In this document: one piece after another, positions 3,349-7,789 of the stretch | Layout: every line of letters starts with the position of its first letter | How positions within the stretch are numbered: position 1 is the stretch's first letter | DNA from: an uncultured Pseudomonadales bacterium | GTDB taxonomy: Bacteria > Pseudomonadota > Gammaproteobacteria > Pseudomonadales > UBA7434 | Assembly (NCBI GenBank): GCA_943788835.1 | Contig: CALSRU010000011.1 | Span: 1 to 64,000 of the forward strand | Direction of reading: 5' to 3' | DNA: 64,000 bases | Notes under the pieces: model-generated | What the model saw: the letters and a program-made list of their open reading frames with translations, nothing else | Told to the model about the DNA's origin: nothing | The model's database searches: none | Translations under genes and position numbers: made by a program

Positions 3349-6156
3349 ATGAAGCGAGGGTCGTTAAAAAAACGCATAACCCTTTTTGTTATGCAGGCTG
3401 TGCTAGCAACGTTATTGCTCGCATTGATATTGGTTTTAGTCATAGAAAATGTCACAGCCCGAAAAGATTTAAAACGCGAGATTGATAACCTTATGTCAGT
3501 AGTGAGCCGAAGCGTGGTACCGGCTATGCTATTCAACGACAGGCGCGAAGCGAGCGCCACATTGGCAACGCTCAGTGGCGATTCGCGAATAATAAAAGCA
3601 CAGTTGTTAAATAATAATAACAGTATCTACGTCGAGTATGTCCGGCACCAAGAATTCTCACCAGAAAATAAAAATGAAACGTTTTTCGGTGGAGCAGTAG
3701 AGCGATTTAAACTCTCGATTGGGGGCGACACGCGACTGCTTGAGCGAGATGTTATTACGGCCAACGGCGAGAAAATTGGCGAGTTAAACCTTTGGTTAAA
3801 CCGGGCCGAGCACAACCAGCGAATATTAAGTATTATTTTTTCAATTGTGGGTGTAGGCATCTTTTGCTCAATAGCTGGAGTTGCTATGGGTAATCGTTTA
3901 CCCCGCACAATGATCAAATCTTTCCAAAATCTTGAAAATACCTTTTCTGACATATCAAAAAGCAATGATTACAGTCAGCGTGCGCCTGACACACAGATTA
4001 TTGAGCTAGATGGATTAGTCAGCAGCTTTAACATTCTTATTGACAAAGTTCGGCAGAGAGAAGTACAGATCGAGTCGCATCGATATAATCTTGCCCTAGC
4101 CTTAGATGGCAGTGGAGAAGGTATTTGGTCTTTCGATCCGGCGCAGAACATTTTTGAGCTGGATGGACGTAGTTGCGAGATTATTGGTTGCCAAGAACAA
4201 ATGACATTTACACAGCTATTGCGCTTTGGTGGCAGTGTTGCTCGAAAAAATATTACTGGCGCGCTAAGAGATTTTTATCAGAAGGGCAAAAATCAGTTTG
4301 AAATAGAGTGCCTTGTTCGGCGCGGGGACGGTCATGACCATTGGATAATTGTTCACGGTAAATTTTACGTCGATGCCCTTGGTGGAATGGCGCGTGCAAG
4401 TGGTACGCTAATAGATAATGACGCTCAGCGAAAATCAAACGAAGAAAGCCAGTTATTGGCCGCAGTATTTAGAAATACGCAAGAGCCGGTATTGGTTGTA
4501 GATGAGACACTGAAGATACAGATAAAAAATGAGGCCTTTGTTAATTCATATCGTTTGGCTAGAGCCTATGACTATTTGTCGGATCTAATGTCGGACAAAT
4601 ACACAGAAAATTTTACGACTCAAATAATTAGTGATTTAGAACAGCTTGGGTCTTGGGAGGGGCAGGTTGAGCTTAAGCTCAACCGGTACGAGACACAAAC
4701 AGTTTGGCTTTCTTTTAGCGCCATCAAATCAGGCGATCAAAATCAGCCTACAAGTCGCTATTTAGGTACGCTAATGCGTCTTGATGAGCGCGAAAGAATG
4801 GAGGATAAGCTACGCTATTTTGCGAATTATGATTCGCTAACTAACCTGCCAAATCGACGATTTTTTAATGAAAAGCTAACGGAAGCTTTAGGTTTGGCGA
4901 AAGAGAATTCGGCATCTCTTGGCCTGTTTTTCGTTGATATTAATGACTTCAAGATGGTCAATGATCAGTATGGTCATGCGATGGGCGATGAGTTATTAAA
5001 AATAGTTGCTGATCGTTTGCAGTCGAACACGCAAAATTCTGATGTTGTAGCGCGCTTGGGCGGTGATGAGTTTGTTATCTTGTTGGATGAATTTCGCCAT
5101 TCAAACGGTATTTCAAAGACTGCCGACAGAATAATTAGTTTGTTGGATCGACCGTTTTCAATCAATGGGTCTGAAATTCGTTCTAGTGCGAGTATTGGCA
5201 TAGCAGTATTTCCCAATGACGGTGATAACTCAGAAGATCTAATGCGGCATGCTGATATTGCTATGTATCGAGCAAAGGTTGCAGGCCGTAGCCAGTATTT
5301 ATTTTTTGATAAGAAAATGGCAGTTGAGATCCAACACTACAGTCGATTAAAAAGTGATTTGGCTTTTGCAATTGAGAGAGATGAGTTATCTATTCATTTG
5401 CAGCCTAAATTCAATTTGAAAACGTTTGAGATATCGTCAGCTGAAGTATTGCTGCGCTGGAAGCATCCAATACTTGGATTCGTGTCACCTGCTGACTTTA
5501 TTCCCATCGCTGAAGAATCTGGGCGAATATCGGAAATCGGTATGTGGGTTGTCGATAGAGCTATAGAAGTGCTTTGCCGATGGAAGAGTACCAATTTTTC
5601 AAACCTTGCTTTGGCCGTCAATGTCTCCGCTAAGCAGTTTTCTGATATCGATTTTATTGATCATATTTCCGAGTTGGTTGCGGAGCATGATATAGATTCT
5701 TCGCAGCTTGACGTTGAAATAACTGAGTCGTTGCTTGCGAGCTCGCGGGATATCGCTGACAAATTTTGCAAGAAAATAAAGAGTATTGGCTGTAGTTTGT
5801 CGATAGATGATTTTGGTACGGGCTATTCTTCATTTAAGTATTTGGCAGAGCTCCCTTTAGACATTTTAAAAATAGACCGTGATTTTGTTTCAGGTATTGG
5901 AAGCGCTGCACAAGAGGATCAAGTCGTGGAGGCCATGATTGGTATTGCGCACAGCCTAAATATGCAAGTGGTTGCAGAAGGTATTGAGACAGAAGATGAA
6001 TTGCGGTTTTTGCAGCGTGCAGGTTGTGAATATGGGCAAGGCTATTGGTGCTCTAAGCCTTTGCCCCTGATCGAATTCGAGGCTTTCCTTACCGGGTGGG
6101 TCGAAAAAGATTTATCCAGTGAGAAGATTTCTTTCACATTGTTAGAGAGGAAATAA
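3349..6156 (+). CDS. Inner-membrane sensor diguanylate cyclase/phosphodiesterase (CHASE8-like, HAMP, PAS, PAS, GGDEF, EAL)
   Basis: A 935-residue bifunctional cyclic-di-GMP enzyme. TM1 is about residues 8-34, a YfiN/CHASE8-like periplasmic sensor about 35-155, TM2 about 160-182, then HAMP, two PAS-like domains (about 245-365 and 370-495), GGDEF and EAL. The active site GGDEF is intact at 571-575. The inhibitory I-site RxxD is replaced by QNSD, so product inhibition may be lost. The EAL domain has EVL at 699-701 in place of EAL but keeps the other catalytic marks (NVSAKQF, EITES, DDFGTGYSS, KIDRDF, EGIE, QGYWCSKP), so hydrolysis is likely possible. It is first in a three-gene operon with an outer-membrane barrel and a YfiR-like protein, by analogy the probable inhibitor of this sensor. 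An AAGAAG site precedes the ATG. Confidence 0.93.
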   Translation: MKRGSLKKRITLFVMQAVLATLLLALILVLVIENVTARKDLKREIDNLMSVVSRSVVPAMLFNDRREASATLATLSGDSRIIKAQLLNNNNSIYVEYVRHQEFSPENKNETFFGGAVERFKLSIGGDTRLLERDVITANGEKIGELNLWLNRAEHNQRILSIIFSIVGVGIFCSIAGVAMGNRLPRTMIKSFQNLENTFSDISKSNDYSQRAPDTQIIELDGLVSSFNILIDKVRQREVQIESHRYNLALALDGSGEGIWSFDPAQNIFELDGRSCEIIGCQEQMTFTQLLRFGGSVARKNITGALRDFYQKGKNQFEIECLVRRGDGHDHWIIVHGKFYVDALGGMARASGTLIDNDAQRKSNEESQLLAAVFRNTQEPVLVVDETLKIQIKNEAFVNSYRLARAYDYLSDLMSDKYTENFTTQIISDLEQLGSWEGQVELKLNRYETQTVWLSFSAIKSGDQNQPTSRYLGTLMRLDERERMEDKLRYFANYDSLTNLPNRRFFNEKLTEALGLAKENSASLGLFFVDINDFKMVNDQYGHAMGDELLKIVADRLQSNTQNSDVVARLGGDEFVILLDEFRHSNGISKTADRIISLLDRPFSINGSEIRSSASIGIAVFPNDGDNSEDLMRHADIAMYRAKVAGRSQYLFFDKKMAVEIQHYSRLKSDLAFAIERDELSIHLQPKFNLKTFEISSAEVLLRWKHPILGFVSPADFIPIAEESGRISEIGMWVVDRAIEVLCRWKSTNFSNLALAVNVSAKQFSDIDFIDHISELVAEHDIDSSQLDVEITESLLASSRDIADKFCKKIKSIGCSLSIDDFGTGYSSFKYLAELPLDILKIDRDFVSGIGSAAQEDQVVEAMIGIAHSLNMQVVAEGIETEDELRFLQRAGCEYGQGYWCSKPLPLIEFEAFLTGWVEKDLSSEKISFTLLERK

Positions 6157-6158
6157 AA

Positions 6159-7184
6159 TTGAAGTGGTTCTTGCCTTTTTTTCTAGCGATTATCTCGCAT
6201 TATTCGTTCGCTGCCGAAAGAAATTACTTGGATTTTTCATTGGAGCAGCTTGTCGACTACGACATTTATTCGCCCCCTGTGCTGCAGTCTCATATCCATT
6301 GGGCAGGTGAGTTGATGGTTGCGTATCACTATTCACATACCCGCACGGATGGAATGGGGAGCGCTGAAACTGCGCTCAGTACCCATGATGTGTTTAATGA
6401 TTACACCTATATGGTTACACCCACGGCTATGAATATGGACATGCACATGCTCCATTTTATGTATGCGGTTAGTGATCAAACGACTTATATGCTGCGATTA
6501 CATCACATGGCTATGGAGATGGAGCATGAAACTCGAATGGGCGGTGAATTCACTACTCAAAGTAATGGGTTCGGTGACATTGCCATTTCAATGAATCATC
6601 AAGTTAATGAATGGAGTGACCACGAAGGTAATGTACGACAATTTGTGCATGCCAGTTTGCTGCTTCCAACGGGCGACATTGACGCTAAAGATACTACGCC
6701 TATGTCAGGAGGTGGCCAGGTTCAATTGCCTTATGGTATGCAATTGGGTTCAGGCAGTTATCAGGCTCGTTTCGGTTTGGGAGTTGATAAGTTAACCGCT
6801 AAGGATAGTTTTGGTGCATTTCTGATGGCAAAAGGCGCCCTTGACAAAAATGATGCAGGCTATCGCATTGCCCCCGAGGCAAGCTTAGATGCATGGTACC
6901 AGAGAAGTCTGAGTAACAACTTTAGTGCAGGGCTCTCCGGAAGTTTGACATGGAGGGGCGATATAAGCGGGCGGGATGATCGTCTTAACCCCAACCTAGT
7001 GCCGACGGCCGATAGGGATAATTATGGAGGTCAGTGGGCTGAGATGGGTGCAAGCGTGTCTTACTTGATAGATGGAACTTACCGTGTCGGCATGTCTGCG
7101 AGTTTGCCTGTTTGGCAAGATCTGAGCGGCCTGCAGTTGCGTAAGAAGTCAGTGATAGAGCTCATCCTGGAGCTAACTTTATGA
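6159..7184 (+). CDS. Outer-membrane beta-barrel protein, Met/His-rich, transporter-like
   Basis: A 341-residue exported protein starting at TTG two bases after the upstream stop, with GAGAGG as ribosome site. A signal peptide of about 18 residues ends at SFA/AE. The mature start contains FSLEQLVDYDIYS, resembling the LSLEELM-type segment common at the N-terminus of TonB-dependent receptors in this part of the gammaproteobacteria. The rest is alternating amphipathic strands ending in a hydrophobic-aromatic pattern, as in phenol-degradation/MetA-type transporters. Residues about 80-130 are strikingly rich in Met and His (MNMDMHMLHFMY, HHMAMEMEHETRM), a composition typical of copper-handling proteins. 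The ATGA overlap with the next gene indicates tight coupling. Function is inferred: a surface ligand sensor or metal/small-molecule channel. Confidence 0.75.
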   Translation: MKWFLPFFLAIISHYSFAAERNYLDFSLEQLVDYDIYSPPVLQSHIHWAGELMVAYHYSHTRTDGMGSAETALSTHDVFNDYTYMVTPTAMNMDMHMLHFMYAVSDQTTYMLRLHHMAMEMEHETRMGGEFTTQSNGFGDIAISMNHQVNEWSDHEGNVRQFVHASLLLPTGDIDAKDTTPMSGGGQVQLPYGMQLGSGSYQARFGLGVDKLTAKDSFGAFLMAKGALDKNDAGYRIAPEASLDAWYQRSLSNNFSAGLSGSLTWRGDISGRDDRLNPNLVPTADRDNYGGQWAEMGASVSYLIDGTYRVGMSASLPVWQDLSGLQLRKKSVIELILELTL

Positions 7185-7789
7185 AGAGGGACTTTATTTT
7201 TCAAAAAATATTCTCGTTAGCCGTGCTTTCCACCATGCTGTGCTTCATGCAACCGACATTGGCGAAGAACTCTGCTCTGAAGGCGGCTTATGTTTATCAA
7301 TTTTGCCAATATATTTGGTGGCCTGATGATAAGGAAGATCTAAACATTGCAGTGGTTGGCGGTCAGAATTCGGACTTTGAATCAATAGCAGGCAGCATTG
7401 TTGACGGTAAAAAGCTCAAAGTTAAATATTTGAATAGTCTTGGAGCATCGAATGGCGGTTTTGATGTTTACTTTTTCTTCAAGGGTAGTGAAGATATTTT
7501 TAATAAGATGGTTGAAGTAATTCCCAAGGGGGCACTTACCATTGCTGATGAGGGCTTTGCAGCAGATAAGAGCGATGCTGTTTTATATTTGGTGAGAGTT
7601 GGAACTAAATTGAAGTTTTCAATAAACCAAGATGTGGCAAAAACAAATTCAATTGGTTTTAATTCAAGGCTTTTGAAAGTTGCGCATCCAGTGGAAAAAA
7701 CAACTGTGAATAAAGGGCTGATAAAGAAGCAGGGGTTTAATAACCGGGTAAGTGATGATCGTGTTGACAGTTTTGTAGCGAAAAGGTAG
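7181..7789 (+). CDS. YfiR-like periplasmic regulator (DUF4154)
   Basis: A 202-residue secreted protein with a signal peptide (cleavage near TLA/KN, about residue 28). The mature start, LKAAYVYQFCQYIWWP, is the family hallmark (KAAxxYxFxxxxxWP). The later SINQDVAKTNSIGFNSRLLKVA matches the closing YfiR segment. In Pseudomonas, YfiR inhibits the diguanylate cyclase YfiN from the periplasm and is itself controlled by outer-membrane YfiB. Here the partner would be the CHASE8-like GGDEF/EAL protein two genes upstream. It overlaps the barrel gene by four bases. The C-terminal tail of about 30 residues is basic and looks disordered. Confidence 0.85.
   Translation: MKRDFIFQKIFSLAVLSTMLCFMQPTLAKNSALKAAYVYQFCQYIWWPDDKEDLNIAVVGGQNSDFESIAGSIVDGKKLKVKYLNSLGASNGGFDVYFFFKGSEDIFNKMVEVIPKGALTIADEGFAADKSDAVLYLVRVGTKLKFSINQDVAKTNSIGFNSRLLKVAHPVEKTTVNKGLIKKQGFNNRVSDDRVDSFVAKR

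Follow-up and report, generated by a model that had tools for sequence, protein, structure and literature searches.

A Yfi-like operon in which an outer-membrane channel carries an N-terminal motif common to DUF4154-linked receptors

We analysed a stretch of 64,000 nucleotides (the window) from an uncultured Pseudomonadales bacterium (GenBank assembly GCA_943788835.1, contig CALSRU010000011.1, here C11). It contains a three-gene operon (3349-7789, plus strand) for an inner-membrane sensor with CHASE8, GGDEF and EAL domains, an outer-membrane channel and a YfiR-like protein of the DUF4154 family. In this study, we found that a short N-terminal motif is common to two unrelated outer-membrane folds encoded beside DUF4154 genes, namely channels of this kind and TonB-dependent receptors. 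The channel, the YfiR-like protein and the CHASE8 sensor very likely form a working partnership. We lean towards the reading that the three genes form a Yfi-type envelope-spanning relay, whose outer-membrane member would be a ligand-gated channel with a YfiR-contacting tail. To our knowledge, the route of a signal from the outer membrane to a cytoplasmic cyclic di-GMP (c-di-GMP) enzyme or kinase has been worked out for few systems. Should the tail motif prove to be the site of YfiR contact, an entire class of receptors and channels in the outer membrane would be recognisable as sensors from sequence alone. The switch would also be open to test by means of a peptide, a YfiR-like protein and, in a culturable marine bacterium, the deletion of ~18 residues. 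The first-pass annotation of this DNA had proposed a relay through a barrel to a c-di-GMP enzyme, and it missed the motif, which is the most informative part.

The channel gene (6159-7184) encodes 341 residues. Its signal peptide (residues 1 to ~18, 6159-6212; read by eye, with a helix at residues 5-13 in the structural model) is followed by the motif FSLEQLVDYDIYS, and the proposed YfiR contact covers residues 21-38 (6219-6272). A channel was counted as linked when a DUF4154 gene lay on the same strand within two open reading frames (ORFs). As judged from their first residues, the linked channels begin alike, with RNYLDFSLEQLVDYDIYS in the window, SEFAEMSLQELFNTNIYE in a paralogue on contig C12 of the same genome and NDYAEMDLSELVNLDIYA in genome G157, and linked TonB-dependent receptors carry the consensus DDLFDLSLEELMNIEVTS directly after the signal peptide. 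Most unlinked channels start with a stretch rich in His and Met, for example SHAPIGVMGDHMHKAGEWM. A position profile of the motif was built from 21 DUF4154-linked TonB-dependent receptors, with no channel included. With this receptor-only profile, all 11 linked channels scored 5.5-26.3 bits (11.8 for the window channel), whereas all 43 unlinked channels scored at most 2.5 bits. Among 740 other N-termini used as background, one reached 12.2 bits and five reached the score of the weakest linked channel. Thirty unlinked receptors showed no motif by eye and mostly had a VVTA-like TonB box; their best profile score was 6.0, above that of the weakest linked channel (5.5), in a sample biased by its choice of the best Plug scorers.

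The neighbourhood of the operon is conserved. The same genome has a second locus, on C12, with a channel, a DUF4154 gene and a CHASE8/GGDEF/EAL gene. Among 145 genomes drawn as relatives (the order set), 48 had DUF4154, 39 a channel match and 69 CHASE8; of 390 genomes drawn from the order, 70 had a channel match. Of 54 full-length channel genes fetched from part of the channel matches in these two draws, 11 were linked: that of the window, the C12 paralogue and nine in other genomes. Beyond the window, the linked channel genes thus number 10, spread over 10 genomes of the order, with the second locus of the same genome included. Profile matches outside 300-420 residues, which were fragments in L170 and proteins of 845-955 residues in L235, L242 and L243, were excluded from the 11 linked and 43 unlinked channels.

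A set of named genomes was examined in the same way, with the best 80 of 552 channel loci kept; eight of the 80 were already present in the order set. By profile, DUF4154 occurs somewhere in 75 of these loci, and in 73 it shares the strand of the channel and is at most two ORFs away. Of the DUF4154-bearing loci, 72 also have a protein labelled as CHASE8-type, on one strand or the other. Because the CHASE8 profile, which had been seeded with CHASE8 and HAMP, also labelled a chemotaxis-like protein in L232, the profile-labelled proteins were checked with Pfam. This check, on the N-terminal 240 residues of the first labelled protein per locus, found DUF4154 in 75/75 and CHASE8 in 69/72. The motif reached at least 5 bits in 70 of the 75 named DUF4154 loci (62 of 67 when the eight repeats are left aside). 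Of the remaining five, L296 and L300 have variant motifs by eye, the N-termini of L318 and L369 are cut or wrongly started, and the stretch scanned in L329 stopped within an apparent motif. Among the five named loci in which no DUF4154 was detected, L327 and L334 carry the motif beside CHASE8, L358 is truncated, and L370 and L371 have channels of the unlinked kind with no motif.

The named loci come from Pseudomonadales, Alteromonadales, a Parvularculaceae, Verrucomicrobiota and Nitrospinota, the last three represented by metagenome-assembled genomes only, in which mis-binning is possible. Their outputs were GGDEF plus EAL in 31 of the 75 loci, GGDEF alone in one and a histidine kinase in 37; six were assigned no output, three of which also lacked the CHASE8 label. 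Since the arrangement occurs a second time in the same genome and recurs widely, it is more than chance, and the conserved neighbourhood makes it very likely that the channel works together with the YfiR-like protein and the CHASE8 sensor. The partnership in the earlier proposal was therefore supported; c-di-GMP as its only output was not, given the histidine kinases in 37 of 75 loci.

In the 67 DUF4154 loci of the order set, a TonB-dependent receptor lay directly upstream in 21 and a channel in seven, the window included. TonB-dependent receptors are the commonest recognisable outer-membrane neighbour of DUF4154 in this set and channels the second class, so the barrel is not the one-off stand-in for YfiB that had been suggested. 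Pfam confirmed the Plug domain in the four upstream receptors examined (L077, L090, L104 and L100). In many of the 67 loci no outer-membrane gene was recognised adjoining DUF4154. An ShlB/FhaC-type gene was found by Pfam directly upstream of DUF4154 in three loci (L081, L083 and L088); further two-partner secretion genes beside DUF4154 are a TPS-domain protein in L103 and a very large ORF in L084, which gives a third outer-membrane class beside YfiR-like proteins. DUF4154 is also fused to a histidine kinase and receiver in two genomes (L125:3835-6594 and L139:4237-6678), and such fusions support an action of YfiR on the sensor. In L350, profiles placed DUF4154 and a kinase in one protein.

We also investigated the occurrence of motif-bearing receptors across genomes. 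The order set was searched with a motif-plus-plug profile of 20 linked receptors; DUF4154 was present in 34 of the 35 genomes with a motif-covering receptor match, compared with 48 of 145 overall. The training rows, 20 in number and linked by design, are part of these counts. A second sample of 200 genomes, drawn separately across the phylum, had DUF4154 in 40 of 42 motif-covering genomes, compared with 50 of 200 overall, and 39 of the 50 strongest receptor matches lay within 5 kb of DUF4154, a count from which a few weak DUF4154 rows were left out. Both sets of co-occurrence counts track relatedness and cannot be read as independent events. Twenty of the phylum-wide receptor loci were fetched; the motif, or a variant of it, is recognisable by eye in 19, and for the twentieth, L278, the stretch inspected lay too far upstream. 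Twenty order-set receptor loci (L252-L271) were also inspected: the motif was visible by eye in 17 and missing from two, and the remaining locus is cut. Nineteen of these 20 had no DUF4154 in the stretch, and 19 of the 20 came from DUF4154-positive genomes. It is possible that motif-bearing receptors far from DUF4154 are inputs in trans. In two genomes, G117 (L087, L252) and G038 (L105, L253), a DUF4154-CHASE8 pair has no adjoining receptor and a motif-bearing receptor is encoded elsewhere.

The channel itself was identified as an outer-membrane barrel, as had been predicted. It matches Phenol_MetA_deg (PF13557, E=5.1e-6, 27.1 bits against a cut-off of 22). AlphaFold2, with 49 aligned channels, gave a model with a mean predicted local distance difference test score (pLDDT) of 88.9 and ~12 long strands, in which every ten-residue block from residue 51 on has a pLDDT of 89-98. 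The N-terminal tail was modelled at low confidence, with a short helix at residues 28-34. The top solved matches of the model in Foldseek were FapF (5o67, E=2.0e-14) and a COG4313 channel (4rl8, E=6.8e-14). A search of genome contigs with the window channel found no relatives. Its Met and His contents are 6.0 and 4.1 per cent; the medians are 7.05 and 3.6 per cent in 28 unlinked relatives and 1.2 and 1.5 per cent in 75 channels of the named set. Unlinked channels rich in Met and His, for example G000:C4:642754-643671 (L137), mostly have an N-terminal SHAPIGVMGDHMH-like stretch and are candidate metal channels; a small neighbour gene in L137 matched no family. The unlinked Met-rich channel of L145 adjoins PepSY proteins and a histidine kinase/response regulator pair, which is no more than suggestive of copper.

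In the best trees the window channel and the G157 (L232) channel are grouped with unlinked Met-rich channels and separated from the remaining linked ones, in one tree by a split with 100/100 support. G157 is the one genome among the others whose linked channel shares the Met-rich type of the window. The window channel may have been recruited separately and later, from a lineage of Met/His-rich channels that possibly handle copper. An independent origin of the window-type linkage by two recruitments was considered and is not claimed, because a single linked clade was not rejected (approximately unbiased test, p-AU 0.337 and 0.254) and the window channel has a long branch.

The sensor gene (3349-6156) encodes 935 residues. 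Pfam found a periplasmic CHASE8 domain (PF17152; residues 38-148, 3460-3792; E=2e-9, above the cut-off), in a place on which a genome search agrees, a GGDEF domain (residues 492-648, 4822-5292; E=1.7e-51) and an EAL domain (residues 671-904, 5359-6060; E=4.6e-69). The HAMP domain that had also been annotated gave a match below the cut-off (E=0.011, 16.5 bits against 25). Because the GGDEF motif is present, together with an E-V-L form of the EAL motif at residue 699 and DDFGTG at residue 820, both cyclase and phosphodiesterase-type activities are possible as judged from these motifs. Two PAS domains had been claimed. One is weakly supported in the linker: residues ~247-366 (4087-4446) match the sensory-box histidine kinase chain 3mr0, which we take to be a PAS domain (phmmer, E=0.0021). 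The second stretch matched nothing PAS-like among solved chains, and Pfam lists no PAS in the sensor.

The third gene (7181-7789) encodes a YfiR-like protein of 202 residues, presumably periplasmic, whose DUF4154 domain (PF13689; 7274-7684) was matched with E=3.9e-22 as annotated. A profile of 41 relatives including the window protein matches solved YfiR (E=3.6e-17); searched singly, the window protein matched no solved chain. A search of viral contigs with it found no relatives.

The proposed mechanism starts from the periplasmic tail, in which a short helical motif (SLEQL) directly follows the signal peptide of the barrel. Through this tail, the channel would hold the YfiR-like protein or let it go. 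A ligand in the lumen, perhaps a metal such as copper for the Met/His-rich window barrel, would change the place of the tail; this shift would alter the balance of the YfiR-like protein between the channel tail and the CHASE8 domain, and the sensor would then reset the balance of its GGDEF and EAL activities. We infer the contact between YfiR and the motif, the ligand-driven movement, the direction of the effect and the identity of the ligand. According to PMC4493636, the lumen of the solved COG4313 channel Pput2725 is almost closed by the residues that precede strand 1 and fold into it, and the motif of linked channels lies in the equivalent segment before strand 1. For YfiB, PMC4655355 and PMC4887326 describe a segment before the OmpA domain that rearranges on clasping YfiR, and place activating mutations in residues 35-55. 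More tentatively, we propose a plug-and-play arrangement, in which a short N-terminal motif would connect structurally unrelated outer-membrane proteins to YfiR-CHASE8 receptors in cis or in trans; the outputs would be c-di-GMP or histidine kinases, more than one phylum would have the system, and a ligand-driven tail would be the common switch.

Several observations weigh against the proposed relay. AlphaFold2 of the C12 paralogue channel, read through its TAG stop into the YfiR-like protein, folded both parts, with the motif at a pLDDT of ~33-35 and no sign of docking; the modelling of a barrel-YfiR complex suggested earlier thus gave no support. The window channel modelled alone also had low pLDDT in the motif (~30-39 over both models) and no docking sign. 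In the YfiR-like protein, the YfiR cysteine pairs 71-110 and 145-152 (as given in PMC4655355) are missing, and the mature protein has one cysteine. The hydrophobic pocket of YfiR that binds YfiB, with the residues named in PMC4887326, is partly kept when mapped by hand: L166, I169, V176, P178 and L181 of YfiR correspond to Q, A, F, S and L. The motif profile does not pick out E. coli YfiB (best score -7.2). The segment LSAEQIAVLQ of P. aeruginosa YfiB is similar by eye, but since its E. coli counterpart fails the profile, YfiB is not claimed as a motif carrier. The neighbouring GGDEF-EAL protein of the only other Met-rich linked channel (G157, L232) has no CHASE8 by Pfam. Finally, motif-covering matches occur in genomes in which no DUF4154 was detected (1/35 and 2/42), and many others are distant from any DUF4154 gene, so the motif might serve some other function; because two of 20 inspected matches lacked the motif by eye, the genome counts are approximate.

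These last points bear on a different explanation, namely that the motif is a general outer-membrane element, serving, for example, TonB, the assembly machinery or plug gating, and that its link to DUF4154 reflects shared ancestry or lifestyle. The motif of receptors sits just before the plug, at the expected place of the TonB box, and it is seen by eye away from DUF4154 in 17 of 20 fetched receptor loci and occurs in three genomes with no DUF4154 detected. However, plug-less channels carry the motif when linked, the 43 unlinked channels of the same family do not, and genome-level co-occurrence with DUF4154 is near complete (40/42). We regard a general role as unlikely, though as the most probable of the alternatives. 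Envelope-quality sensing is rather improbable. Here the tail would be exposed only if the channel were mis-assembled or unoccupied, and the relay would report damage instead of a ligand, which agrees with the low confidence of the tail in both AlphaFold2 models and with the description of YfiBNR as cell-stress responsive in PMC4887326. Since receptor and channel types differ in their barrels (Met/His contents of the window channel far above the named-set median, for example), ligand-specific inputs are suggested instead.

Still less probable is inside-out control, in which the sensor and YfiR would gate uptake by the channel through the tail, with c-di-GMP as the input. LapD-type proteins use their GGDEF-EAL domains as inside-out receptors and provide a precedent, but the window sensor keeps its GGDEF and EVL/DDFGTG motifs, and the frequent histidine kinase output in the named loci fits outside-in signalling. 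Simple co-transcription, in which the uptake channel would have nothing to do with the c-di-GMP pair, might be suggested by the differing gene order between lineages and by the CHASE8 genes divergent from the channel in several loci (for example L301, L302, L305 and L306), but is highly improbable in view of a neighbourhood kept across distant lineages and the association of motif with linkage.

The relay with a YfiR-contacting tail was compared with known systems. YfiBNR occurs in Pseudomonas aeruginosa and its E. coli counterpart is yfiR-dgcN-yfiB; Yersinia HmsCDE has been named as a further counterpart. In YfiBNR the enzyme is held in check by YfiR and set free by the outer-membrane partner. 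Like YfiBNR, the window joins a periplasmic DUF4154 protein, a CHASE8 inner-membrane enzyme and an outer-membrane partner in one operon. Unlike it, the window has a channel as the outer-membrane partner where YfiB is an OmpA-type lipoprotein, an enzyme with EAL besides GGDEF where the YfiN-type output is GGDEF only, and a YfiR-like protein that lacks the two cysteine pairs. As annotated, no YfiB-like protein accompanies the operon: C11 has no OmpA-domain match, and the nine such matches of the genome are all elsewhere. Because the YfiR-like protein and CHASE8 are shared, yet YfiB, the GGDEF-only output and the cysteines are absent, we filed it as a new and apparently widespread variant of the Yfi system. 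The channel resembles the COG4313/Phenol_MetA_deg channels (Pput2725, 4rl8) and FapF (5o65-5o68), its best Foldseek matches, and shares PF13557 above the cut-off and a modelled barrel of ~12 strands with the COG4313 kind; it differs from both in its DUF4154-linked N-terminal motif and in its place in a signalling operon. TonB-dependent receptors upstream of DUF4154 have the same N-terminal motif, adjoining DUF4154 and usually CHASE8, but are large and contain a plug domain, whereas the window channel is small. Two NCBIfam families come close, NF053592 (sensor histidine kinase, YfiR-like protein-associated; 87.5 bits for the window sensor against a cut-off of 194) and NF053591 (TOL_0243 family YfiR-like; 59.7 bits for the window YfiR-like protein against 125). 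Their names indicate that curators noted histidine kinases beside YfiR-like proteins; no outer-membrane partner is named in them. A search of titles and abstract openings in the open-licence literature found no description of this architecture.

The layout of the locus was exactly as first annotated, with three ORFs on the plus strand, 2 bases between the sensor and barrel genes and a 4-base overlap (ATGA) between the barrel and YfiR-like genes. The barrel gene starts with TTG and has GAGAGG upstream; the other two start with ATG. Downstream, a cobalamin-dependent methionine synthase is encoded on the opposite strand. Upstream, ~1.1 kb contains no long ORF, and the operon stands alone. Matches to consensus promoters numbered 12 against a shuffle mean of 12.0, that is, no excess. 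A short ORF of 45 residues at 2668-2805 resembles a small single-span membrane protein, and it is followed by a terminator-like hairpin at 2820-2840.

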